A DNA stretch of 36,940 bases from Alistipes sp. Lineage in GTDB: Bacteria > Bacteroidota > Bacteroidia > Bacteroidales > Rikenellaceae. The stretch's first letter is position 1; the number at the start of each line of letters is the position of its first letter. The stretch lies in the NCBI GenBank assembly GCA_017463615.1, contig JAFTOU010000002.1:1-36940 (forward strand), written 5' to 3'. Made by a program: the position numbers and the translations under genes. The notes beneath the pieces are model-generated. The model was not told the origin of the DNA and made no database searches. It saw only the letters and a program-made list of their open reading frames with translations. Of this stretch, positions 1 to 16,494 are shown piece by piece.

Positions 1-211
<211 letters not shown>

Positions 212-4898: not shown

Positions 4899-5004
4899 TA
4901 AGCCATATTTTGTTGGCTCGTCTACGACGACCCTTCCTCCTCGCGGCTCGGCATAGTCTGCAAGCAGCCTCTGCTCTCGCTCCGCAGCGTCGGTTGTCAG
5001 AGTG
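4899..5004 (+). repeat. 106-bp direct repeat, copy B
   Basis: Identical to copy A, 202 bases downstream. Between the copies, 4847-4866 carries TTTACAACGCTCGGCAAAAA, which recurs with one difference at 8168-8187 in another composite repeat. Together 4531-5118 is a 588-base stretch with no protein gene. Confidence 0.9.
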
Positions 5005-5025
5005 TGTCAGATACGGTGCATCGTG

Positions 5026-5072
5026 AAAAAGAGCAGTCGCGGATAGTACTAAAGCGTACAGCCGCGACTGCT
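5026..5072 (-). terminator. Terminator hairpin with conserved GTACTAAAGCGTAC loop (after EF-G paralogue)
   Basis: An 11-bp perfect stem AGCAGTCGCGG (5032-5042) / CCGCGACTGCT (5062-5072) encloses a 19-base loop, ATAGTACTAAAGCGTACAG. Read leftward, the stem is followed by C and a T run (5030-5026), so it can terminate the leftward gene ending at 5119. The same loop core occurs at 8203-8216 and 14413-14426 on different stems. Confidence 0.8.
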
Positions 5073-5073
5073 A

Positions 5074-5117
5074 TTTAAGGGATGTGCCGTAGGTGGCACG
5101 CTATCACAACAAAATGG
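5074..5117 (+). repeat. 44-base repeat shared with 27139-27183
   Basis: Both copies share TTTAAGGGATG, GCCGTA and CTATCACrACAAAAT in the same order with small differences between. Here it lies directly against the stop codon of the leftward gene at 5119, and contains the small hairpin GTGCC-GTAGGT-GGCAC. Confidence 0.65.
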
Positions 5118-5118
5118 T

Positions 5119-7272
5119 TTACTCCTCGTCGGTATCAGTATAAGCCTTCAACAACTTATCCTGCACATCCGATGGAACCTGCTCGTATGCCTCAAAGCGC
5201 ATGGTGTAGGTAGCAGCGCCGGAGGTGAGGGATGAGAGGGTGGTTGAGTAGCGATAGAGCTCAGCCAGAGGCACGCGAGCCTGGAGGCGGTCAAAGCCCT
5301 TATCGTGGTCCATACCCATAATCATTGCGCGGCGGTTCTGCAGATCACTCATAACAGAGCCCATATACTCTGATGGTGTGAGCACCTCTACGCTATAGAT
5401 AGGCTCCATAATCTTCGGACCTGCGTTGCGGAATGCCTCCTTGAAGGCGTTACGAGCAGCGAGCTTAAATGAGAGCTCATTTGAATCTACTGGGTGCATC
5501 TTACCATCATAAACAATCACGCGGATATCACGAGCGTAAGAACCTGTGAGTGGGCCCTCGTCCATCTTCTCCATAATACCCTTAAGGATAGCTGGCATAA
5601 AGCGAGCATCAATAGCACCACCAACGATAGAGTTGTAGTACTGCAGCTTACCGCCCCAAGGAAGGTCATACTCCTCCTTACCCTTGATATTCACGGTAAC
5701 CTCCTTGCCGCCAGACTTATACTTTGAAGGCTCGCCGATACCCTCGTAGTAAGGCTCAATAACGATATGTACCTCACCAAACTGACCTGCACCACCAGAC
5801 TGCTTCTTGTGGCGGTAGTCTGCCATAGCGACCTTAGTAATAGTCTCACGGTATGGGATACGAGGAGCGAAGAACTCCATCTCCACCTTACTATCTGCAA
5901 GGATGCGAGCACGCAGGATATTGAGGTGGTGCTCACCCTGACCCTGGATAATGGTCTGCTTAAGCTCCTTAGAGTACTCTACAAGGATAGTTGGGTCCTC
6001 AAAGCGAGCGTCCAGAAGCAACTTGCCGAGTTTCTCCTCGTTAGCCTGATCCTTAGCCTTAACAGCAGCGCGGTAGCGTGGCTCAGGGAATACGATAGGC
6101 TCAACAGCAACAGGTGCACTTGGAGCTGCGAGGGTGTCGTTTGTACGAGTGCCCTTCAGCTTCACGGTGCAACCGATATCACCAGCCTCAAGCTGGGTAA
6201 CCTTGATACGGTTCTTACCTGCAACAGCGAAGAGCTGAGAGAGCTTCTCCTTATTGCCAGTGCGAGAGTTTACAAGCTCCATACCCTCGGTTACAGTACC
6301 ACGAACTACGCGGAAGTAGTTGATCTCGCCGATGTGGTGCTCCATCTGGCTCTTGAATACGAACAGAGCCACTGGTGCGGTCTCGTCTGCAGGCATAGCC
6401 TCGCCCTCAACGGTGAGGAAGTCTGGTGCCTTAGTAGGACCTGGAGCAACATTGATGATGAACTCCATCAGACGCTTAGTACCGATGTCGCGCTTACCGC
6501 TGGTAACGAAGATAGGCATAACCTTACGGTTAGCAACACCGAGCTTCAGACCTGAGCGGATATCGTCCTGAGTAAGGGTACCCTTGTCAAAGTAGAGCTC
6601 CATAAGAGCGTCGTCATACTCTGCAGCGGTCTCTACCAGCTCCTGATTGAGAGCCTTTGCACGCTCCATCTCAGACTCTGGAATCTCAAGCTCCTCGCGA
6701 GTACCGTTCTCGTCAGTGAAGCGATACATCTTCATCATCAGAACATCCACGAAAGAGTTGAAGCCTACGCCCTGGTTTACAGGATACTGAACAACTACAG
6801 GCTTTACGATAGAGTCAGCCTTGATGCTCTCCAGTGTAGACTCGTAGTTAGCCTTGTCGGCATCCAGCTGGTTGATAACACCGATAAGTGGCTTATTGAG
6901 GATGCTTGCATAGCGAGCCTGAATCTCGTTACCTACCTCCCAGCCGGTCTGAGCATTTACAAGCATAACGCCCACATCACCCACCTTGAAGGCAGAGAAG
7001 AGGTTGCCGCAGAAGTCGTCAGAACCTGGACAGTCAATAATATTGAGCTTGCGACCCATAAACTCAGTAAAGAGTGTAGTCGCGTAGATAGAGCGCTTGT
7101 ACTCATGCTCAATGTCGGTGTTATCCGACAGAGTGTTGTTGTTTTCAATACTACCCCTACGGTCAATAACCTTACCTTCGTAAGCCATAGCCTCTGCAAG
7201 GGTAGTCTTACCCGAGCCTGGAGCACCTATCAGAACGATGTTCTTAATCTCTTTTGGTGAATAGTTTTTCAT
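5119..7272 (-). CDS. fusA2: Elongation factor G paralogue with degenerate GTPase motifs (EF-G2 type)
   Basis: The 717 residues have the EF-G domain order, including domain IV RETITKVAMADYRHKKQSGG and the domain V region MGSVMSDLQNRRAMIMGM. The P-loop is intact (GAPGSGKT, 16-23). Elsewhere the GTPase signature departs from EF-G: switch I lacks RGITI (here KRSIYA, 59-64), the DTPGH motif is DCPGS (80-84) so the catalytic His is Ser84, and NKMD is NQLD (134-137). A second EF-G of this kind is known in gut Bacteroides and has been reported to support translocation without GTP hydrolysis; equivalence here is an inference. A TetM-type ribosome-protection protein is less likely. The gene is alone, with a 113-base leader in which I see no clear promoter, and ends at a hairpin terminator. 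Confidence 0.85.
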   Translation of the reverse strand: MKNYSPKEIKNIVLIGAPGSGKTTLAEAMAYEGKVIDRRGSIENNNTLSDNTDIEHEYKRSIYATTLFTEFMGRKLNIIDCPGSDDFCGNLFSAFKVGDVGVMLVNAQTGWEVGNEIQARYASILNKPLIGVINQLDADKANYESTLESIKADSIVKPVVVQYPVNQGVGFNSFVDVLMMKMYRFTDENGTREELEIPESEMERAKALNQELVETAAEYDDALMELYFDKGTLTQDDIRSGLKLGVANRKVMPIFVTSGKRDIGTKRLMEFIINVAPGPTKAPDFLTVEGEAMPADETAPVALFVFKSQMEHHIGEINYFRVVRGTVTEGMELVNSRTGNKEKLSQLFAVAGKNRIKVTQLEAGDIGCTVKLKGTRTNDTLAAPSAPVAVEPIVFPEPRYRAAVKAKDQANEEKLGKLLLDARFEDPTILVEYSKELKQTIIQGQGEHHLNILRARILADSKVEMEFFAPRIPYRETITKVAMADYRHKKQSGGAGQFGEVHIVIEPYYEGIGEPSKYKSGGKEVTVNIKGKEEYDLPWGGKLQYYNSIVGGAIDARFMPAILKGIMEKMDEGPLTGSYARDIRVIVYDGKMHPVDSNELSFKLAARNAFKEAFRNAGPKIMEPIYSVEVLTPSEYMGSVMSDLQNRRAMIMGMDHDKGFDRLQARVPLAELYRYSTTLSSLTSGAATYTMRFEAYEQVPSDVQDKLLKAYTDTDEE

Positions 7273-7385
7273 TTTAGTTCTATAATTTTAAGGTTTTTAC
7301 TAACTTTTAGTTCAAAGTCCGTTTTCAGTCTATAAAATTAAGCACTTTTTTTTGAACCGCCAAGCGTTTTACAAAAAATCTGCAT

Positions 7386-8054
7386 CTACTTAGCAACTTT
7401 CACCATTTTTATATTGTTTACGCTATACTTTGGATTGAATCTGCATACATCTACATCGCCCACAATTCCCGCCACGCGACCACGACGGGTATACTGCCAT
7501 ATGGTGTACATTCCCTTGCCGTCAATTACGGGTCGCTTGCCGCCATAACGACCCAAGTAGAGGTGATAGCGGTTGTACTTGGGCGCTAAATATTTGTTGT
7601 AGAATACCTGCGAACTGTATATCATCGGCAGACAGCCATACTCCTTTTTGAATAGAGCTATCAGCTCGTCTAACCGCGCCTGAATGGCAGCCTTGGAGCG
7701 GGAGTCGGTAACCTCAATGTCAATCATCGGAATAAGGTCCATCTTCCGCCCTGCCACGGTGCGCTTGAAGTGGGCAAACTGTTCCTGCGCGCTGCTGGTC
7801 ATTCGGAAAAAGTGGTATACACCCACGGGAATACCCGCTGCACGAGCACCCTTGTAGTTGCGCACAAAGTATGGGTCGGTGTATGTCGCCCCCTCCGTCG
7901 CCTTGATGTATACGAACTTCATCCCCGCGCCCTTGACCTTCTGCCAGTTGATGCTCTTCTGGTAGCGCGAGACATCTATGCCCTTGCCCTGTGCAACGGC
8001 AAAAGATGTCACAAAGATGCTTAGTATTGTAAAAAGTATTATTCTGGTTTTCAT
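7386..8054 (-). CDS. Secreted GH25 lysozyme (N,O-diacetylmuramidase)
   Basis: The 222 residues have an N-terminal signal peptide (to about residue 21, FAVAQ) and one glycoside hydrolase family 25 domain. Motifs visible: GIDVSRYQ (Asp27), FVYIKATEG, GVYHFFR (78-84), IPMIDIEV with the Asp112-x-Glu114 pair, IWQYT, and GDVDVCRFN. The enzyme cuts the MurNAc-GlcNAc bond of peptidoglycan in the periplasm or outside the cell. The frame is open upstream to 8267, but that part reads through the repeat element, so ATG 8052-8054 is chosen; it is followed at once by a signal peptide. Heptamer units of the repeat end three bases before the ATG, so no normal 5' region remains. Confidence 0.9.
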   Translation of the reverse strand: MKTRIILFTILSIFVTSFAVAQGKGIDVSRYQKSINWQKVKGAGMKFVYIKATEGATYTDPYFVRNYKGARAAGIPVGVYHFFRMTSSAQEQFAHFKRTVAGRKMDLIPMIDIEVTDSRSKAAIQARLDELIALFKKEYGCLPMIYSSQVFYNKYLAPKYNRYHLYLGRYGGKRPVIDGKGMYTIWQYTRRGRVAGIVGDVDVCRFNPKYSVNNIKMVKVAK

Positions 8055-8057
8055 TTT

Positions 8058-8275
8058 TTGGCTGTTAGCTGTTGGCTTTTCTAAGGTATCGCCAAGGCGA
8101 TGATGTTTATGGATTGAAATACCACTGACGCCCCTCACTGCACCAATTTTAGCGTGATAAGGCGGTAGATACAACGCTCGGCAAAAATACCCGCGATGGG
8201 TTGTACTAAAGCGTACTACCCATTGCGGGTACTTTTTGTTAGCGGAAGTAGGTATCCGCCTTATCACGCTAAAAT
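8058..8275 (+). repeat. Composite repeat, copy 2 (array, hairpin, terminator core, inverted end)
   Basis: Heptamers TTGGCTG, TTAGCTG, TTGGCTT (8058-8078) are followed by the hairpin ATCGCC-AA-GGCGAT (8088-8101) and GATGTTTATGG. The terminator core lies at 8188-8231. A perfect 20-bp inverted repeat (8146-8165 and 8256-8275, ATTTTAGCGTGATAAGGCGG) encloses that core. Its right arm contains the stop and last codons of the gene ending at 8269, so an inverted copy of a gene end sits about 90 bases downstream of it. This fills the 214-base gap between two leftward genes. Confidence 0.85.
8183..8236 (-). terminator. Terminator hairpin with conserved GTACTAAAGCGTAC loop (after DUF3098 gene)
   Basis: The 14-bp stem 8188-8201 / 8218-8231 (TACCCGCGATGGGT against ACCCATTGCGGGTA, one G-T wobble) has loop TGTACTAAAGCGTACT. 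A and T runs flank it on both sides, so it can work in either direction; it lies downstream of the leftward yfhO-ftsX-DUF3098 unit. Confidence 0.8.
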
Positions 8276-8517
8276 CGCTTGAGGATGGCGTATATTTCGA
8301 AGGTAAAGCCAGCGACGACTATGATTGGGGCTAAGGTGATGCGACGGAAGGAGAAGATGTTTTCGTTGAACTGCTCGGGGGTGGAGGCATCGCCACCAGA
8401 CATAAGGATGAAGCCCAGCAGGATAATGACTGCGCCGAGGAGGATGAGGGCGTAGTTTTTGAGTGTTAGGGGCATCTTATCGTCGTTCTCGTTTTTCAGA
8501 TTCTTAAACCACTTCAT
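8269..8517 (-). CDS. Small membrane protein, DUF3098 family
   Basis: An 82-residue protein with two membrane helices (about 22-40 and 61-78) and between them FNENIFSFRRITLAPIIVV, typical of DUF3098. The family is of unknown function and in Bacteroidetes is usually found next to ftsX, often followed by uppP. Here it starts one base after the ftsX stop, and the following uppP is absent because a repeat and terminator come next. The position next to ftsX suggests a link with the cell envelope or division machinery, but that is inference. Confidence 0.75.
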   Translation of the reverse strand: MKWFKNLKNENDDKMPLTLKNYALILLGAVIILLGFILMSGGDASTPEQFNENIFSFRRITLAPIIVVAGFTFEIYAILKRF

Positions 8518-8518
8518 T

Positions 8519-9409
8519 TTAGTACAAATGTATATTATTAGACCTCATATTTACAAATTTATTTACCGCAAAGAGGGTAAAGAGCACCGAGACCACCACG
8601 CCAGCGATGACCATAGCGGCGGTAGTTATGGCGACAATCTCCACCTGCTCAAGCAGGGCGAGCTGCGGCAGGGTGTGGTCCAGGCCGAAGAGCGCGCCGA
8701 CAAAGAGCAGCGTAGCGAAAATACCTGCGACAAGGCCCTGCAGGGCACTACGGCTAAGGAAAGGTTTTATGATAAACCAGCGTGTAGCGCCAACGAGCTT
8801 CATCGTATTTATAGCCTCGCGGCGGCTATAGATAGTCAGTCGGAGGGTGTTATTGAGTAGCACCACAGAGATTACGACCATAGCGCCACCGAAGAGAATC
8901 AGCAGCAGTTGCATAGTATCCAGCACCGAGTGCACCTGCTCCAGAGTACTCTGAGGGTAGGATATATTGGTCACCTCCGCCATAGCTCGGGTTTTATCCA
9001 CGAAAGTTGCCAGGGCGAGCGAGTCGGCAGCAGCGGCAGAGAGGGTCACATCAAAGCTATCGGGGAGCGGATTTGTGCCCAGCACCTCCTTGATATCCAC
9101 ATCAAAGGCGCGGCGGAACTGCTCGTCGGCGAGCTTATCCTCCTTAGAGACAAAGGCGATATTGGCGACGATGCTATCGGCAGCAATAGCGCTGCTAAGG
9201 CTATCACGCTCAGACTCCGAGAGGCCATCCTTAAGCTCCACGAGCATAACAACGCCCTCGCGAACACCCTCCGCCGAGCGGAAGATGTTGTGCATGGCGT
9301 AGCCTATGCTGCCCAAGATAAAGAGCACCAGCGCAATGCTAACCGTAGAGACGGTGTAGGAACGCAATATTTTTCTGCTTGTTGAACTATTTTTCATCTT
9401 TCTGAACAT
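8519..9409 (-). CDS. ftsX: Cell division protein FtsX (ABC-type permease component)
   Basis: 296 residues with the FtsX plan: one membrane helix near the N-terminus (about 22-42), a periplasmic domain (about 45-165), then three helices in the C-terminal FtsX/MacB-type domain. LNNTLRLTIYSRREAINTMK and LVGATRWFIIKPF in the cytoplasmic loop are family hallmarks. With FtsE, FtsX regulates peptidoglycan hydrolases at the septum; ftsE is not in this window. The start overlaps the end of yfhO by 23 bases; a second ATG at 9397 is equally possible and also overlaps. DUF3098 follows at once, so yfhO-ftsX-DUF3098 is probably one transcript. Confidence 0.93.
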   Translation of the reverse strand: MFRKMKNSSTSRKILRSYTVSTVSIALVLFILGSIGYAMHNIFRSAEGVREGVVMLVELKDGLSESERDSLSSAIAADSIVANIAFVSKEDKLADEQFRRAFDVDIKEVLGTNPLPDSFDVTLSAAAADSLALATFVDKTRAMAEVTNISYPQSTLEQVHSVLDTMQLLLILFGGAMVVISVVLLNNTLRLTIYSRREAINTMKLVGATRWFIIKPFLSRSALQGLVAGIFATLLFVGALFGLDHTLPQLALLEQVEIVAITTAAMVIAGVVVSVLFTLFAVNKFVNMRSNNIHLY

Positions 9410-11891
9410 TTTTTCTTCTATACCACACAGCCCCAGCGAGTGAGAGCAGCAGGAGCAGCGAGCTTACTGCCGTAACAGCCTCTGTAGCAGTCCAATATGG
9501 CGCACGGAAACTCCACTCTACCGTATGCTCGCCCGCAGGCAGGCTCATACCGCGCAGGATATAATCCACACGAATGGCATCGGCAGGGACGCCATCAACG
9601 GTGACGCTCCAACCCTTATCATAAAATATCTCGGAGAATACGGCAAAGACCTCCTCCTCGGCAGTGTAGTGGTACTTCAGGCGGTTTGGTGCATACTCCA
9701 CAAGGGCAATATCTCCCGCCGTAGAGTAGGCGGTCTGCTCCGGCACATCGCGCTCGGCAACCACAGCGGTAGAGGCAAGGTCTACAATACCCAGAGCCTC
9801 AATCTCCTCATCAGCACCACGAACACCGAGCACAGAGTCCACAAACCACGCTGCCCCCAATGCGCTATCACGCAGGACAACCTCACCCTCTGAGGAGATG
9901 ATATACTTGGTGTTGAGCATATCAAGGATACCCTCGTGCGGAAGCTCTACAGGCAGGTAGTAGTCTATAATATCCTGATAACGAGAGAGTTTCGCGCCAT
10001 GATAACCACCCACAGAGCGGTGGAACATAGATGTTGTTGCATCGTTGAACGGCGAGACGGAGAGGTTGAACACGCGGTAGCCCAGCTCCTTATCCGCCAT
10101 AATCTGCTTATCCGCCTCGGTGGCTGTAATCTGCGTCTTGCGCGGAGCGACAAAGTCGTCGTGACTGAGGTATCTAAACGCCACAGGGACCATATCGGCA
10201 ATAACCAAAGTCGCAAGCAGGGCGATAGCGTAGCTCTTGCCCAACTTACCATAGACCACCAGCGCCACAACTGCCACGGCAAGCAGCACGAAGATAAGTG
10301 AGCGGAGCGAGTCGGCACTCATCATCTGCTCGCGCTCCTGAGCGATAGCTCCCGCCACAGACCAGCCAATCTCGTCGTGCAGACCCTGCTTAACCAAATC
10401 CTCAGCGCCTCCGTTGTTGAAAATCTGCTCAAAGCGGCTGCTGATACGCATAGCTGTACGCTCCTCGCCAAACTCAAAGATATTTTTGCCAAAGATGCTG
10501 AATATCAGCAGTATGCCTGCTGTAACACCTCCACTCCAGAGCAGAGCCTTGTGCAGTCGCTCTCTGTTCTGCTCCCTGAAGAGCTGCCACAGAGCGAAGG
10601 CTGCGAGCAGAGGCACGCTCCACTGCAGCACCACAAGTGCCATAGAGACGGTGCGGAACTTATTGTACATCGGCAGTATGTCGTAGCACAGCTTTGTAAA
10701 CCACATAGCGTTGCTACCCCAACTGAGCAGCAGCGCAAAGAGGCTCACAGCGACAATCCACCAACGATTTCTATTGCTACAGAGCATAATACCCAGCAGG
10801 GCGAGGAATACCGCCACAGCGCCCAGATATGTAGGGCCCGCTGTATAAGGCTGTGTGCCCCAGTAGGTTGTATCGGTAAGGTATGGCACCACATACTGCT
10901 TCGGCAGACCGATAAAGTCAAAGTAGTCCCATTCCTTGAGCACGCTATTGAGCGGAGCTGTGCGCTCCTCGGAGAAGCCGTCAAAGCCACTCTCGCCACC
11001 CATAAAATCGGGAACTATCATCGTCCAGCTCTCAGTTATGCCGTAGCTCCACGCCGTAGCGTAGTCCAAGTCCAGGCCATCGCTCTGACCCTCAACAGCC
11101 GCCACAGCCTCGCTACCTCCGCGGATAGTATCCTTGCTGTGCTGCATGGTGTAGAAGAGCGACGAGAAGTTAGCACCCACAGAGAGCATCGCCGCAGCCG
11201 CAAGTACCGCCGTGCGCTTACCAAACGAGGCGAGCGCCTTATCCTTGATGGCGAAAATCAGGTCGTTCACCCACAGGGCAAGGGCTGCAAGCAGGAAGTA
11301 GTAGGTTATCTGCGGATGGTTTGCGCCAATCTCCAGGGCAGCAAAAAGTGCCGCCAGAGCGCCTCCTAAAGCCATATTGCCACGCAGGGTCATATATATC
11401 GCACCCATCATTGCTGGGGCGTATGCTGCCGCCCACATCTTGGTGATATGTCCCGCACCGATGATTAGGAAAAAGTAGGTAGACAGTCCGTATGCCAATC
11501 CCGCCACGATGCCTATCCACGGGCTGAGCCCCATCATCACCACCATAAGCCACATAGAGAGCATGGCGAAGAAGATGAGCACTATAGGTTCGCCCATAAG
11601 GTTCATAACCTTGTCCGTCACGCCCTTGATAAACTGCGCGGGGTAGCGTATATTTATAAGGTATGCCGGCATACCGCCAAACATCGCGCCCGTCCACTGA
11701 GGGTCCTCGCCCGTAGCGGCACGGTGTGCGCGGATGTCGCTACTCATACCGTCAAACTGCTGGATGTCGTGCATAGCAATCTTGCGACCCTCAAACTGCG
11801 GGGCGAAACATACGGCACAAACAGCAAAAAAGGTCACCACGGCAACAATCGTTGGCGTAGCGGCAGATAGTATATTCTTCCAGTTTATCAT
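9387..11891 (-). CDS. YfhO family membrane protein
   Basis: 834 residues, strongly hydrophobic. There is an N-terminal membrane helix (about 12-32), a periplasmic loop with GMSSDIRAHR and WTGAMFGGMPAY, then about a dozen more helices and a soluble, beta-rich domain (about 590-800) ending before a last helix and a basic tail. This matches the Bacteroidetes YfhO family, polytopic proteins related in architecture to GT-C glycosyltransferases. In Firmicutes, YfhO has been linked to glycosylation of lipoteichoic acid; the substrate here is unknown. It is the first gene of a leftward unit with ftsX. A possible -7 box TATTTTTG lies at 11920-11913 on the minus strand, without a well-placed -33 box. 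Confidence 0.85.
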   Translation of the reverse strand: MINWKNILSAATPTIVAVVTFFAVCAVCFAPQFEGRKIAMHDIQQFDGMSSDIRAHRAATGEDPQWTGAMFGGMPAYLINIRYPAQFIKGVTDKVMNLMGEPIVLIFFAMLSMWLMVVMMGLSPWIGIVAGLAYGLSTYFFLIIGAGHITKMWAAAYAPAMMGAIYMTLRGNMALGGALAALFAALEIGANHPQITYYFLLAALALWVNDLIFAIKDKALASFGKRTAVLAAAAMLSVGANFSSLFYTMQHSKDTIRGGSEAVAAVEGQSDGLDLDYATAWSYGITESWTMIVPDFMGGESGFDGFSEERTAPLNSVLKEWDYFDFIGLPKQYVVPYLTDTTYWGTQPYTAGPTYLGAVAVFLALLGIMLCSNRNRWWIVAVSLFALLLSWGSNAMWFTKLCYDILPMYNKFRTVSMALVVLQWSVPLLAAFALWQLFREQNRERLHKALLWSGGVTAGILLIFSIFGKNIFEFGEERTAMRISSRFEQIFNNGGAEDLVKQGLHDEIGWSVAGAIAQEREQMMSADSLRSLIFVLLAVAVVALVVYGKLGKSYAIALLATLVIADMVPVAFRYLSHDDFVAPRKTQITATEADKQIMADKELGYRVFNLSVSPFNDATTSMFHRSVGGYHGAKLSRYQDIIDYYLPVELPHEGILDMLNTKYIISSEGEVVLRDSALGAAWFVDSVLGVRGADEEIEALGIVDLASTAVVAERDVPEQTAYSTAGDIALVEYAPNRLKYHYTAEEEVFAVFSEIFYDKGWSVTVDGVPADAIRVDYILRGMSLPAGEHTVEWSFRAPYWTATEAVTAVSSLLLLLSLAGAVWYRRKNVQKDEK

Positions 11892-11963
11892 ATCTTTTCT
11901 CTACAAACCACACAAAAATACAAAAAAACATTCATATTTCGGGTCTCTGTCGCAAAAATTGCT

Positions 11964-11971
11964 TATCTTTG
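11964..11971 (+). promoter_or_regulatory. -7 box of the polyprenyl synthase gene
   Basis: TATCTTTG fits TAnnTTTG, 43 bases before the ATG at 12014. The -33 region is only a weak match (TTTC at 11937). It lies in the 122-base divergent gap with yfhO. Confidence 0.55.
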
Positions 11972-12013
11972 CTAAAATATAAGACTGTTTGTACTATTTT
12001 TAGAACATACTGC

Positions 12014-13000
12014 ATGGTAACACTTGATGATATTCGCCGACCTATAGCCGATAGAATTGAGGAGTTTGAGGCATTTGTCCGCTCGTCCTTCTGCGAGCAG
12101 GAGGGAACATTACTTGCCGATATGGTGGACTATATCCTCAACTCGCGCGGCAAGGGTCTGCGCCCTACCCTTACGATGCTCTGCGCCGCTGCCACATCAC
12201 AATCGGGCAGCTTCGGAAAGCGCACGATGCTTGCAGCAATGCTTATAGAGATGATTCACACCGCCTCGCTGGTGCACGACGATGTTATTGACGAGTCCAA
12301 CCTGCGTCGCGGCAAGGCCTCGGTGAATGCCCGCTGGCAGTCACGCAACGCCGTTATTGTGGGCGACTATATCCTTGCACGAAATATGGATATAGGTCTG
12401 CGTAGCGGACAGTACGACCTGCTAACACACATCATCGGCAATATGGCTGTGCTCTGCGAGGGCGAGATTTTGCAGTCCGACCACGCCGGCAAGTTAGATA
12501 TCTCCAAGCAGGACTACTTTGACATCATCTACAAGAAGACCGCCTCGCTCTTTGCCTCTTGCGCCTCGGCAGGTGCTATGTCTGTAGGTGCTCCGCGCAG
12601 GACTATTGAGAGCATGCACCGCTTTGGCGAGATGGTGGGTATGGCGTTCCAGATTGTAGACGATATTTTGGACTACACGCCAAATAACAACACCGGCAAG
12701 CCCGCCGCTAACGACCTTCAGGAGCGAAAGATTACCCTGCCGCTGCTGGAGACTATGGAGCGCGTAACGCCCGAGGTGCGTAGCCAGATACTCTCTGCCG
12801 TAGAGCGCTCGGCAACAGATAGCTCGGCGGTGGAGTTTATCCACAAGCAGGTGGCAGAGAATGGTGGCGTGGAGGCTGCTCGCGAGGTGCTGCAGCGATT
12901 TTTGCAGCGTGCCCTCTCGGAGCTCTCATGCCTTGAGCAGACACCTTACCGCCAGGCGATGATTGACCTGTGCACATTCGTGGCGGAACGAGATAGATAG
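12014..13000 (+). CDS. ispB: Polyprenyl diphosphate synthase (octaprenyl/heptaprenyl type)
   Basis: A 328-residue all-alpha prenyltransferase that condenses isopentenyl diphosphate units onto an allylic diphosphate, here probably making the menaquinone side chain. Both aspartate-rich motifs are present: DDVID at 89-93 followed by RRG, and DDILD at 216-220. GKGLRP (46-51) binds the IPP diphosphate. An in-frame ATG at 11969 lies on the promoter -7 box, so ATG 12014 (MVTLDDIRRP) is chosen. The following transporter gene starts 24 bases after the stop and could be co-transcribed. Chain length cannot be read from the sequence with certainty, so the symbol is tentative. Confidence 0.9.
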   Translation: MVTLDDIRRPIADRIEEFEAFVRSSFCEQEGTLLADMVDYILNSRGKGLRPTLTMLCAAATSQSGSFGKRTMLAAMLIEMIHTASLVHDDVIDESNLRRGKASVNARWQSRNAVIVGDYILARNMDIGLRSGQYDLLTHIIGNMAVLCEGEILQSDHAGKLDISKQDYFDIIYKKTASLFASCASAGAMSVGAPRRTIESMHRFGEMVGMAFQIVDDILDYTPNNNTGKPAANDLQERKITLPLLETMERVTPEVRSQILSAVERSATDSSAVEFIHKQVAENGGVEAAREVLQRFLQRALSELSCLEQTPYRQAMIDLCTFVAERDR

Positions 13001-13024
13001 TAATTAACCTAAAATCATACAATT

Positions 13025-14293
13025 ATGACAAAGAAAAACGGAAATGTTTTTGCGATTGGAGTGATGTTCTTACTCTTCTTTATGATCGCATTTGTAACCA
13101 ACTTCGCAGGCTCTATGGGCGTTATTGTGAAGAACCAGTTTGGCGCATCCAATGCAATGGCTCAGCTGGGCACATTGGCAAACTTTATCGCCTATGCTTG
13201 TATGGGTATCCCTGGCGGACTTATCCTCAAGCGCAAGGGCTATAAGTTCACCTCGCTGCTCGCTGCTGCAGTAGGTTTTGCAGGTGTTGGTATCCAGTTC
13301 GCATCGGGCTATGTTGAGTCCTTTGCTGTGTATGTGCTGGGTGCTTTTGTGGCAGGTTTCTCTATGTGTCTGCTCAACCTTGTTGTAAACCCTATGCTCA
13401 ACACCCTCGGTGGTGGTGGTAACCGCGGAAACCAGCTCATCCAGCTCGGTGGCTCTTGCAACTCTATCGGTGGTACTCTGGCGCCTATATTCCTCGGCTA
13501 TATGATTGGCGGTCAGGCTGCAACTGCAAGCGTTGGCGACGCTGCCCCTGCAATGATTGCCGCTATGGCTATCTTCGCGCTGGCATTTGTTATCATCGCA
13601 CTCTCTGCAATCCCAGAGCCTCACATGGAGACCGCTGAGGAGAAGGCTGCTCGTAAGGCTGGCAAGGTGGCTAAGGACCCACACGGCCCAATGTCTTTCC
13701 GCCACTTCGTTCTGGGCGCTATCGCAATCTTCTTCTATGTAGGCGTTGAGGTGGGTATTCCAAATACCGCAAACCTCTATATGTCAGGCCTTGAGGGCGT
13801 AGGCCCTGCTGTTGCAGGTACTCTGGTGGGCTTCTACTGGTTCCTGATGATGTGCGGCCGTCTTATCGGTGGCGCTATCGGCGGTAAGGTATCGTCTAAG
13901 AGTATGCTCACTACCGTATGTACCGTTGCTCTGGCATTCGTGCTGCTGCTGATGTATATCCCTGAGTCTGTGACCGTTACAATTCCTGTTATCAACGCAC
14001 AGGTACCTGTAAGCATGGTATTTATGTTCCTCTGCGGTCTGTGTACATCGGTTATGTGGGGTGCAATCTTCAACCTCGCAGCTGAGGGACTGGGCAAGTA
14101 TACCCCAGTTGCATCAGGTATCTTTATGACCCTCGTTTGCGGTGGCGGTATCCTCCCATTCATCCAGGGCTGGGTTGCAGATAAGGTTGGCTTCATCGGC
14201 AGCTACTGGGTAATCATCGCCGGCCTGCTCTATATGCTCTACTACGCACTCGTCGGCTCAAAGAATGTAAATACGGACATTGATGTTGAGTAA
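13025..14293 (+). CDS. MFS sugar:H+ symporter, FHS family (fucose/glucose/galactose type)
   Basis: 422 residues with about twelve membrane helices and the layout of the fucose-galactose-glucose:H+ symporter (FHS) family: NFAGSMGVIVKNQFG in the first segment, PGGLILKRKGYK in the first cytoplasmic loop, and NPMLNTLGG with QLGGSCNSIGG in helices 4-5. The second half begins about residue 230 (GAIAIFFYVGVEVG). The substrate is probably a hexose or deoxyhexose. There is no kinase or catabolic gene next to it, although convergent deoC and galE lie just downstream. Codon use is strongly biased, suggesting good expression. Confidence 0.88.
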   Translation: MTKKNGNVFAIGVMFLLFFMIAFVTNFAGSMGVIVKNQFGASNAMAQLGTLANFIAYACMGIPGGLILKRKGYKFTSLLAAAVGFAGVGIQFASGYVESFAVYVLGAFVAGFSMCLLNLVVNPMLNTLGGGGNRGNQLIQLGGSCNSIGGTLAPIFLGYMIGGQAATASVGDAAPAMIAAMAIFALAFVIIALSAIPEPHMETAEEKAARKAGKVAKDPHGPMSFRHFVLGAIAIFFYVGVEVGIPNTANLYMSGLEGVGPAVAGTLVGFYWFLMMCGRLIGGAIGGKVSSKSMLTTVCTVALAFVLLLMYIPESVTVTIPVINAQVPVSMVFMFLCGLCTSVMWGAIFNLAAEGLGKYTPVASGIFMTLVCGGGILPFIQGWVADKVGFIGSYWVIIAGLLYMLYYALVGSKNVNTDIDVE

Positions 14294-14294
14294 A

Positions 14295-14323
14295 TAAAAA
14301 AGCACCCCGCAGGGTGCTTTTTT
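14295..14323 (+). terminator. Intrinsic terminator after the sugar transporter
   Basis: Stem GCACCC / GGGTGC with loop CGCA (14302-14317), an A run before and a T run after. The stem is the same as in the terminator at 4554, and it too is directly followed by a heptamer array. Confidence 0.92.
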
Positions 14324-14325
14324 AT

Positions 14326-14390
14326 TTAACCATTGGCCGTTAGCCGTTGGCCATTGGCCTTATAGCGGTATCGCTGCGCGATAGAGTTTA
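14326..14390 (+). repeat. Composite repeat, copy 3 (array and short hairpin)
   Basis: Units TTAACCA, TTGGCCG, TTAGCCG, TTGGCCA, TTGGCCT (14326-14360) are followed by GGTATCGC-TGC-GCGATAGAG, a hairpin with arms ATCGC / GCGAT, and GTTTA. The terminator core comes next at 14401. Confidence 0.85.
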
Positions 14391-14394
14391 GCGC

Positions 14395-14444
14395 AAAAAA
14401 GTAGCATCGGATAGTACTAAAGCGTACAGCCGATGCTACTTTTT
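14395..14444. terminator. Bidirectional terminator with conserved GTACTAAAGCGTAC loop
   Basis: The perfect 10-bp stem GTAGCATCGG (14401-14410) / CCGATGCTAC (14430-14439) encloses exactly the same 19-base loop as at 5043-5061, although the stems share no sequence beyond the closing GG/CC. Six A precede and five T follow, so it can stop transcription of both the rightward transporter and the leftward deoC. Confidence 0.85.
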
Positions 14445-14502
14445 AATGAATATGCAGCTAATGCCGTATTTTCACGGTAAATGTGCCGCTATTACGCGAA
14501 AA

Positions 14503-15381
14503 TTAGAAGTGGGAAACAGCAGTACCAAGAATTCCGCTCAACAAGTTGTTTGCAGCAGACGAAGCTCCGATACGGAAGAGGTCGGTGGTGAGCCACTCGG
14601 CGCCCAGAATCTGCTCTACGATGGTGTAGTAGAGGGCTGCGTCTTGTGGGGTTTTGACGCCACCAGCCGCCTTGAAGCCGACCTTACGGCCCGTTTTAGC
14701 GTAGAAGTCCTTGATAGCCTGGCACATAACCACAGCAGCCTCAGGGGTTGCAGCGACATCAATCTTACCGGTAGAGGTCTTGATAAAGTCTGCGCCGGCA
14801 GCCATAGAGAGCAGCGAAGCGCGACGGATAAGCTCCGGAGTCTTCAGAGCGCCTGTCTCAAGGATAACCTTCAGGACAACATCCGAATCCATCTCAGAGC
14901 GAATCATCTCCACCTCAGCAGCTGCCTCGTCGTATGCGCCCGTAAGCATCTTGCCCACATTGAGGACGATATCCACCTCGTCAGCACCATTCTCCACAGC
15001 CATAGCCACCTCAAGCATCTTAACCTCCAGGAAGGTCTGCGACGAAGGGAAGCCGCCACCCACGCTGGTAATACGCATAGGTGTGCCGTCAATAGCAAGG
15101 CCCACGGTCTCCACAAACGATGGGTAGACGCAGATAGAGGCCACATTTGGGATATCCGGATACTTCTGAGCGAAGGTTACGGTGCGCTGCGCAAACTCGG
15201 TAACCGACTCCACAGAGTCGTTGCAGGTAAGCGTAGTAAGGTCCACGGCAGAGAGGCAGAACTTATATACCTCCGCATTCTCGTTCTTTGTGGCTGCAGC
15301 CTTTGCCTCTGCCACCACCTGTGCCACCTGCTCTGCGCTCATCGCCGCAGCGTAATCGTTAAGGATGTTGCTATACTCCAT
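14503..15381 (-). CDS. deoC: Deoxyribose-phosphate aldolase
   Basis: 292 residues, class I aldolase with a TIM barrel. It splits 2-deoxy-D-ribose 5-phosphate into glyceraldehyde 3-phosphate and acetaldehyde in deoxynucleoside catabolism. The active-site residues are in place: Asp137 in NGADEVDIVLNVG, Schiff-base Lys201 in FIKTSTGK, and Lys237 in GFKAAGG. It is closer to the longer E. coli-like form than to the 220-residue form. It follows galE by 12 bases on the same strand and is probably co-transcribed with it. ATG at 15381 is the only good start. Confidence 0.96.
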   Translation of the reverse strand: MEYSNILNDYAAAMSAEQVAQVVAEAKAAATKNENAEVYKFCLSAVDLTTLTCNDSVESVTEFAQRTVTFAQKYPDIPNVASICVYPSFVETVGLAIDGTPMRITSVGGGFPSSQTFLEVKMLEVAMAVENGADEVDIVLNVGKMLTGAYDEAAAEVEMIRSEMDSDVVLKVILETGALKTPELIRRASLLSMAAGADFIKTSTGKIDVAATPEAAVVMCQAIKDFYAKTGRKVGFKAAGGVKTPQDAALYYTIVEQILGAEWLTTDLFRIGASSAANNLLSGILGTAVSHF

Positions 15382-15393
15382 AGTTTTATAGTG

Positions 15394-16422
15394 TTATTTT
15401 ATATTTCTCACACGCTTCTCCCACTCCCAAGCGGACTTAAGTGTCTCGTCCAACGAGCGCTCGGCGTGCCAGCCAAGCTCGTTATTTGCCAGGGTGGTAT
15501 CTGCCCATACGGCAACCACATCGCCCGCACGGCGAGGGGCAACCTTATAGTTGAGCTTCAGGTTATTCACACGCTCAAAGGTATTCACCAGCTCAAAGAC
15601 CGACACTGCACGACCCGTGCCGACATTGAAAATCTCGTAGCGCTCCTTGTTCTTATCCTCCACCATACGGTCAATAGCCGCCACATGAGCCTTAGCAAGG
15701 TCCACGATGTCGATATAGTCTCTCAGGCAGCTACCGTCCGGAGTTGGGTAGTCGTCACCGAAGATAGAGAGGCACTCGCGCACACCCGCAGCAGTCTGGG
15801 TGATATAAGGGACAAGGTTCTGCGGCACACCACGCGGAAGCTCGCCAATAAGAGCCGACGGATGTGCACCGATAGGGTTAAAGTAGCGCAGGGCGATACC
15901 CTTCAGCTGAGGGTATGCAGCCACAGAGTCGCGCAGAATATCCTCGCACATCTGCTTAGTATTTCCATAGGCACTGGTTGCTGGCTTGCGCTCCGTAGCC
16001 TCCGTTACCGGAAGCTCATCCGCCTCGCCATAGACCGTTGCCGAGGATGAGAAGACGATATTATGCTTGCCCGAGGCGAGCATCAGCTCCACGATATTGA
16101 TAAACGAGAGCAGGTTGTTGTGGTAGTACTTCATCGGGTCAGCAACAGACTCACCAACAGCCTTGAAGGCGGCAAAGTGGATTACAGAGTCAAAGTCGTA
16201 CTTAGCAAACAGCTCTGCAAAGGCCTCGCGGTCGCAACAATCCACATTGACAAAAGGGACATCTACGCCCGTAATGGCACGCACACCCTCCACACCCGAC
16301 ATATCGGAGTTAGAGAGATTGTCGGCAATAACCACATCGTATCCCGCCGCTATAAGCTCCACAGCCGTATGCGAGCCGATATATCCAGCTCCGCCCGACA
16401 CAAGTACTGATTTTTTATTCAT
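15394..16422 (-). CDS. galE: UDP-glucose 4-epimerase
   Basis: 342 residues of the extended short-chain dehydrogenase family, interconverting UDP-glucose and UDP-galactose (possibly also the N-acetyl forms). The NAD-binding GGAGYIGS lies at 10-17, FSSSATVYG with Ser126 at 124-132, and the YxxxK pair is Tyr152-Lys156 (SAYGNTK). The C-terminal half has NPIGAHPSALIGE and NVGTGRAVSVFE as in GalE. The frame extends upstream to 16473, but the upstream Met lies over the promoter, so ATG 16420-16422 (MNKKSVLV) is chosen. The product can feed LPS and capsule synthesis. Confidence 0.96.
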   Translation of the reverse strand: MNKKSVLVSGGAGYIGSHTAVELIAAGYDVVIADNLSNSDMSGVEGVRAITGVDVPFVNVDCCDREAFAELFAKYDFDSVIHFAAFKAVGESVADPMKYYHNNLLSFINIVELMLASGKHNIVFSSSATVYGEADELPVTEATERKPATSAYGNTKQMCEDILRDSVAAYPQLKGIALRYFNPIGAHPSALIGELPRGVPQNLVPYITQTAAGVRECLSIFGDDYPTPDGSCLRDYIDIVDLAKAHVAAIDRMVEDKNKERYEIFNVGTGRAVSVFELVNTFERVNNLKLNYKVAPRRAGDVVAVWADTTLANNELGWHAERSLDETLKSAWEWEKRVRNIK

Positions 16423-16449
16423 TTTTTGCAAATTTTTGGTAGTTCGGTA

Positions 16450-16457
16450 CAAATATA
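16450..16457 (-). promoter_or_regulatory. -7 box of galE-deoC
   Basis: TATATTTG on the minus strand fits TAnnTTTG and lies 28 bases before the galE ATG. The -33 region is only a partial match (TATTG). It sits in the gap after the upstream lipoprotein gene. Confidence 0.55.
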
Positions 16458-16494
16458 CAAAAAATTTCTTCACAATATCACCCCTGCCACACTC

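Follow-up and report, generated by a model that had tools for sequence, protein, structure and literature searches.

A 36,940-nt stretch of DNA from an Alistipes species (GenBank assembly GCA_017463615.1, contig JAFTOU010000002.1, positions 1 to 36,940), hereafter called the window, carries three copies of a long palindromic element that adjoins the 3′ ends of genes. When complete, the element is a nested hairpin of ~130 nt (~124 to 130 nt) whose tip is formed by a 14-base core, GTACTAAAGCGTAC. This hairpin and its GTAC-hexaloop-GTAC tip are kept by selection while the stems change, copies lie directly at gene 3′ ends in one orientation relative to the gene, and their orientation is nearly uniform along contigs. 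The evidence seems to us evenly poised as to whether these copies form a genus-specific family of long extragenic palindromic elements that spread as a folded single strand and that resemble repetitive extragenic palindromic (REP) sequences while falling outside the described REP classes.

The original prediction, made from the letters of the window, described three terminator hairpins with unrelated stems and a shared loop. All three are present with the stems as first described (Table 1), each contains the exact core, and the window holds no exact fourth copy of it. Copies 1 and 3 also have a longer loop, ATAGTACTAAAGCGTACAG, in common. A search of the whole genome (2.38 Mb in 67 contigs) recovered the exact core 51 times, compared to none for a reversed control and a chance expectation of ~0.02 by our own arithmetic. 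Allowing up to two mismatches gave 104 places versus 5 for the reversed control. The further genomic copies likewise have complementary but different stems, so the condition named for refuting the original prediction does not hold. The feature is larger than first described, in that the prediction did not include the outer arms, the contact with gene ends, or the replication polarity.

A covariance model (R1) built on 65 copies of one structural type (type A, described below) from this and related genomes gave 146 matches in the window's genome. With the best 150 candidates scored, 141 of these are non-redundant, and the genome therefore carries at least 141 copies, of which up to three at contig ends may be assembly duplicates. 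Analyses of gene ends, tips and runs, folding, and box motifs were conducted with 138 copies, omitting 3 of the 141 that are cut by contig ends; both sets exclude copy 3 of the window and a small number of weaker copies. Five contigs of genome G000 (C28, C35, C52, C53, and C65) end inside or beside a copy, with the core at base 107, 12, 25, 107, and 12, respectively, and the element repeats seem to break the assembly.

Reading outward from the tip on the plus strand, the element consists of the hexaloop, GTAC paired with GTAC, a small bulge, a variable inner stem, and an A-run facing a T-run. Beyond these runs lie a collar of two main types and then a variable outer stem, TTTNNYGT/ACRNNAAA. 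The collar is ACGCTCGGC/GTTAGCGG in type A and GCATCGTG/AAGGGATGTGC in type B. The suggestion that GTAC in the loop pairs with GTAC proved correct, but the loop is not unpaired as a whole, because its unpaired part is the hexaloop. The tip pair is GTAC/GTAC in 131 of the 138 copies and ATAC/GTAT, a two-sided change, in another 6, although the tip-scoring script gave a bonus to xTAC stems and thereby favored both counts. Invariance of the loop was not borne out, since the hexaloop is TAAAGC in only 50 of 138 copies, with many variants, and at least two collar types exist. The exact pattern with which the first copies were gathered selected for this loop. The accompanying idea that selection or copying acts on the loop fares better. 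The tip belongs to the best-conserved parts of the element, and the change of elements at the EF-G gene (see below) fits a process of copying or replacement.

Pairing is maintained among copies whose stem sequences differ. The structures predicted by RNAalifold include 45 pairs for type A, 28 of them with two-sided changes, and 41 pairs for type B, 23 of them with such changes. Two-sided changes occupy 388 cells, compared to 104.6 (standard deviation of 9.5) in shuffles. Pairing reaches 96.7% and falls to between 30.9% and 51.0% when the partners are slid. This covariation, together with the loss of pairing upon sliding, indicates that the stems are under selection for pairing. Copies sharing one flanking key were skipped in several of the comparisons between copies. 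One unusual copy (L035, G000:C57:111086-111226) joins a type A left arm to a type B right arm and has mismatched inner stems; it arose either by crossing over inside the core or as an artefact of assembly.

The contact with genes was assessed by calling genes as the longest open reading frames (ORFs). A minus-strand ORF of at least 80 aa ends near the right edge of the element in 127 of 138 copies. Its stop codon is located within −12 to +6 nt of the outer stem in 103 copies, at 0 to 6 nt in 72, and at exactly 0 in 47. For 31 of the 103, the stop codon occupies positions −12 to −1 and is thus inside the outer stem, as observed for the DUF3098 gene of the window. On the mirror side, 56 copies have an ORF end, none of which falls within −12 to +6 nt; these ends are 16 to 159 nt away, except for four at −20. 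Inspection by eye revealed that several copies outside the main range are the second unit of a tandem array or are parted from the stop codon by a short element remnant. The window genes that are touched encode EF-G, a DUF3098 protein, and a DeoC/LacD-family aldolase, the last of which is reached via a remnant. For two genes, orthologues that carry the element and orthologues that lack it encode proteins ending at the same residue, or an equivalent one, and the stop codon is therefore native in those two genes. At locus L073 (5909-6110), a tRNA-Arg gene is followed ~2 nt beyond its 3′ end by an element with the orientation seen after protein genes. This one case suggests that the border is set by the functional 3′ end of a gene rather than by translation.

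Orientation was tallied for contigs with at least two copies, where 131 copies in the window's genome point one way and 5 point the other. Four other species yielded 124, 116, 66, and 139 matches, and among 150 listed of these 445, the orientation split is 117:5 when contigs with at least two listed matches are counted. Gene strand bias was ruled out as the cause of this polarity because, across 15 stretches (317 kb) of the window's genome, 140 genes are on the opposite strand and 116 are on the same strand. For the four other species, null draws with p set to 0.55 or 0.65 never gave five or fewer minority copies in 20,000 tries. Among the minority copies, four of the five from the window's genome also touch a stop codon. 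Of the five in the other species, three are near the end of an ORF of >400 aa, one is 50 nt off, and one has no convincing ORF. The plus (element) strand has a negative GC skew in 12 of the 15 stretches, and the 16S rRNA gene of the window is on the minus strand. On these grounds, the minus strand was taken as the leading strand and the touched genes as leading-strand genes. The skew and this one rRNA gene thus hint that the plus strand may be the leading-strand template.

Fold energies computed with standard parameters, which ignore cellular factors, predict better folding for the strand that is the template of the touched gene. This plus strand has the more stable predicted fold in 137 of 138 copies, with a mean difference of −11.9 kcal/mol, and the same holds for 62 of 65 and 26 of 26 copies in the alignments. 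Where pairs are mostly Watson-Crick, G-U combinations outnumber A-C combinations by 130:28 and 59:10. The advantage of the plus fold is independent of the left neighbor, as it is observed for 61 of 61 copies with a left gene pointing towards the element, for 70 of 70 with one pointing away, and for 6 of 7 where no left gene was seen. Read-through from a convergent left gene was ruled out as the cause of plus-strand folding because the effect is equal for both orientations of that gene. Judging from the predicted folds, the molecule under selection is probably the plus single strand, either RNA or DNA, and is not obviously a read-through transcript.

The end of the EF-G gene provides a view of element turnover. 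Of 30 EF-G loci, L181 has no gene end and L183 is not EF-G proper, and neither was used. A matching element is present in 18 of the 28 loci from relatives, in each case at the gene end, although one match is weak (E = 1.6e-5). At L158, a short remnant lies between the EF-G end and the element. A sister species with 96.7% EF-G identity carries a type A element that is 93% identical to a different copy in the window's genome and 65% identical to that genome's own EF-G copy. Across the 16 of 18 positive loci that were compared for identity, the EF-G copy of the window ranks only 54th to 135th of 138 in similarity. Some copies are inherited, since an identical element is shared by two species whose EF-G is 97% identical to that of the window. 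One orthologous site therefore holds different element types in related species, and the element identities at EF-G disfavor vertical drift as the sole source of stem differences. The proposed enzyme that would exchange stems while leaving the loop in place does not match this pattern because stems, collars, and loops change together at EF-G (by eye).

Tandem copies, including a pair at L077 and three in a row at L167, and short remnants stacked beside stop codons (by eye) point to what may be repeated arrivals at one site. In genomes G048, G046, and G056, the EF-G 3′ end (L161, L162, and L163, respectively) is occupied by long palindromes that touch the EF-G stop codon and that have an ATAC-hexaloop-GTAT-like tip and other outer arms (e.g., AATCGTTCTGATTG...). 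The R1 model detects only the palindrome of L163, and weakly. These palindromes probably belong, as distant branches, to one superfamily with the element.

Matches to the R1 model occur in 79 of 151 same-genus genomes, including that of the window (E up to 0.001), and in 0 of 294 sampled other genomes of the class. Of 20 such outside genomes with listed kinship, nine are from the same order and none are from the same family, and no other genera of the family are covered. A 23-base version of the core was found in 63 stretches of the GTDB collection, all from metagenome-assembled genomes (MAGs) named Alistipes sp., uncultured Alistipes sp., or Rikenellaceae bacterium, and many of these stretches come from cattle, yak, sheep, goat, and deer. 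The sequences analyzed are draft genomes, probably MAGs, and some copies are at contig ends. Rfam holds no family that matches the elements at gathering or relaxed thresholds; in the window, it reports only 16S rRNA and weak matches below gathering. No earlier description of the element was found in the openly licensed literature at the level of titles and the beginnings of abstracts.

Within the window (Table 1), copy 2 is a complete nested hairpin of ~124 nt spanning positions 8148 to 8271 (DNA fold z = −10.3). The outer arms of copy 1 resemble those of copy 2, with one arm interrupted. By eye, its left outer arm is split into positions 4907 to 4915 and a part from 4993 onward, with ~77 bp of another repeat in between. 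This second repeat, at 4916 to 4992, is GC-rich (GGCTCGTCTACGACGACCCTTCC... / ...GAGCCRCCTAAAGGCGGCTC) and is bordered by a short AAC/GTT duplication. It is also found in L016, L037, L060, and L159, where it lies inside or next to the left outer arm of an element or takes the place of that arm. Copy 3 has lost its left outer arm, and the remnant of a second element, CCGCTATTACGCGAAAA at 14486 to 14502, touches the next stop codon. The long plus-strand ORF at 14446 to 16050 probably does not represent a gene, since it has no Pfam match, whereas aldolase and epimerase/dehydratase families are matched by the minus-strand ORFs at 14503 to 15381 and 15394 to 16473. Contact with gene ends could serve as an annotation marker, and here it speaks for the aldolase gene on the minus strand and against the plus-strand ORF that overlaps it.

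Table 1. Element copies and genes in the window
Feature	Position	Strand	Details
16S rRNA gene, 5′ part, running off the window	1-211	−	Rfam match, model positions 1-202, 3′ cut off
Element copy 1	4979-5119	+	Collar type B; inner hairpin 5032-5072; core 5046-5059; R1 covariance model, 64.1 bits
EF-G gene	5119-7272	−	Stop codon 5119-5121, 3-4 nt from right edge of copy 1
Element copy 2	8137-8279	+	Type A; inner hairpin 8188-8231; core 8203-8216; R1, 146.2 bits
DUF3098 gene	8269-8517	−	Stop codon 8269-8271, inside outer stem of copy 2
Element copy 3	14397-14444	+	Inner hairpin 14401-14439; core 14414-14427; R1 model positions 50-98, 37.9 bits
Right arm of copy 3 (type B, degenerate), then second-element remnant	14445-14502	+	By eye, against aligned copies
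DeoC/LacD-family aldolase gene	14503-15381	−	Stop codon 14503-14505, directly after remnant

If these copies do form a mobile family, they would spread via a folded single-stranded form, either DNA or RNA. This form would be handled by an enzyme that reads its shape and tip and not the sequence of its stems. Copies whose folding strand is on the lagging-strand template would be unstable and lost, or would never be made. Copies would be tolerated at gene ends and, once placed, many may act as ordinary, often bidirectional, transcript ends. Their precise placement could result from targeting, or from erosion that stops at the last base with a function. A more specific proposal, which is possible but which we hold only tentatively, is that the element represents an undescribed class of strand-specific mobile hairpin, known so far from one Alistipes-like genus. 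Such a hairpin would move as a folded single strand recognized by its shape and its GTAC-hexaloop-GTAC tip, would be placed exactly at functional gene 3′ ends (stop codons and, in one case, the end of a tRNA gene), would be tolerated only with the folding strand on the leading-strand template, and would use an enzyme other than a Y1 transposase. If true, this would bring together three features that are rarely seen in combination: repeats whose structure is conserved although their stems change freely, a replication polarity that is almost absolute, and contact with gene ends at the level of single bases. It would also offer a natural test system for the survival of hairpins on leading versus lagging templates, and possibly a new way to mark or invade gene 3′ ends in uncultured gut bacteria.

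Several observations weigh against a mobile family. The Y1 transposase of REP elements (REP-associated tyrosine transposase, or RAYT; PF01797) is present in 0 of 52 same-genus genomes, including that of the window, whereas 5 of 14 control genomes are positive. The sole RVT_1 reverse transcriptase found (472 aa, L184 1162-2580) is on contig C49, without a model match. Among relatives, no clean pair of empty and filled sites with both flanks conserved was found, as the bare gene ends recovered have an unconserved far flank, and we therefore only infer insertion. The A- or T-runs of most copies are also expected from plain host selection. The strand asymmetry is partly due to composition, since a mononucleotide-shuffled control (60) gives −3.3 kcal/mol, and the pairs used to count G-U and A-C were predicted on the plus strand, which favors G-U. 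The assignment of the leading strand is weakened because GC skew also tracks gene direction (the three stretches with positive skew hold mostly same-strand genes) and because the skew is positive over the first 4 kb of the window. Finally, the interrupted arm of the EF-G copy in the window lowers its similarity to other elements and its rank.

A rival explanation is that the elements are intrinsic, mostly bidirectional terminators of the touched genes that are maintained by the host, with compensatory evolution and some spread by recombination. Many copies do have a terminator-like hairpin with runs: an A-run left of the inner stem, which is a U-run in the direction of the gene, is present in 114 of 138 copies, a T-run on the other side in 87, and both in 86. 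Moreover, the inner hairpins are stable, and the elements are mostly directly downstream of a gene. As a complete description, however, the term is not supported, because 24 of 138 copies have no A-run of at least 4 on the left, 51 have no T-run on the right, and several copies in other species also lack T-runs. Terminators would leave unexplained the outer collar, the arms, the type swaps at EF-G, and the 131:5 restriction to the genes of one strand when genes themselves are split 140:116. In addition, the elements make contact at 0 to 6 nt, whereas hairpin terminators of the same genes in element-free relatives start further downstream (by eye). We consider this explanation unlikely overall. 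Chance similarity of three terminators, for which we counted nothing in favor, has essentially been refuted by the 51 exact copies versus 0 for the control and by the covariation.

A structured RNA made from the plus strand, antisense to the touched gene, might for example stop head-on antisense transcription into leading-strand genes. Because head-on transcription is relevant only to leading-strand genes, this function would give polarity, and the excess of G-U over A-C on the plus strand and its more stable fold in 137 of 138 copies also fit such an RNA. We nonetheless judge it improbable. The strand effect is equal when the left neighbor points away, which leaves about half of the copies with no evident source of read-through, and the U-run is better kept in the direction of the gene than in the plus direction. 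Moreover, the window contains no Rfam family for the elements, and no promoter was demonstrated, though none was systematically sought. There is a very small chance that the copies are integron-like attC sites or decayed cassettes, that is, structure-recognized recombination sites after genes. The geometry is similar, in that a bottom strand folds and is kept on the leading-strand template according to the portions of two sources used here (PMC11023631, PMC5371416), and structure is conserved above sequence. The R-boxes of such sites are found in 0 of 138 copies, however, and copies are scattered after genes such as EF-G and not arranged in cassette arrays.

Among known systems, bidirectional intrinsic terminators resemble the element in the A-run, GC-rich hairpin, and T-run that many copies have. 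Terminators are not known to have a conserved tip, an outer collar with arms, or a replication polarity. Integron attC sites closely follow the stop codon of the cassette gene. For chromosomal integrons, the recombining attC bottom strand is the folded strand and is kept on the leading-strand template, as stated in the portions of the sources relied on (PMC11023631, PMC5371416). The element is similar in that its folding strand may be the leading-strand template, that structure takes precedence over sequence, and that it adjoins a gene. It differs by having no R-boxes, as RYYYAAC and GTTRRRY boxes within 45 nt of the ends were found in 0 of 138 copies on either strand (shuffles average 0.21 with both boxes), and its copies were not seen in a cassette array. 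Insertion sequences of the IS200/IS605 family use strand-specific secondary structures, and their excision and insertion are tied to the replication fork (the part of PMC6006769 consulted). Strand-specific folding and a possible link to replication are shared with the element, whereas insertion of IS200/IS605 members by a Y1 transposase is into the lagging-strand template (same part of PMC6006769).

REP sequences, with the related bacterial interspersed mosaic elements (BIMEs) and REP doublets forming hairpins (REPINs), include the GTAG and CGTC families. They are described in the portion of PMC3733652 used here as high-copy extragenic palindromes that are mainly downstream of coding regions and whose stems and loops differ within families; that portion also states that no transposase gene has been reported in association with CGTC repeats. 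Like these sequences, the element is present in high copy (at least 141) downstream at gene ends, and a CGTC tetramer is near the outer end in 96 of 138 copies, with GTAG further in for 72 of 138. The described, RAYT-linked REP class was ruled out by size and by the 0 of 52 genomes with a Y1 transposase: the element is ~130 nt, compared to 20 to 40 bp for REP sequences (as given in the same portion of PMC3733652). Furthermore, REP sequences have an unpaired terminal tag, whereas the element has nested stems and a conserved tip, with its CGTC in or next to the paired outer stem, and it has one orientation with respect to both gene and replication, together with direct contact with the gene end.

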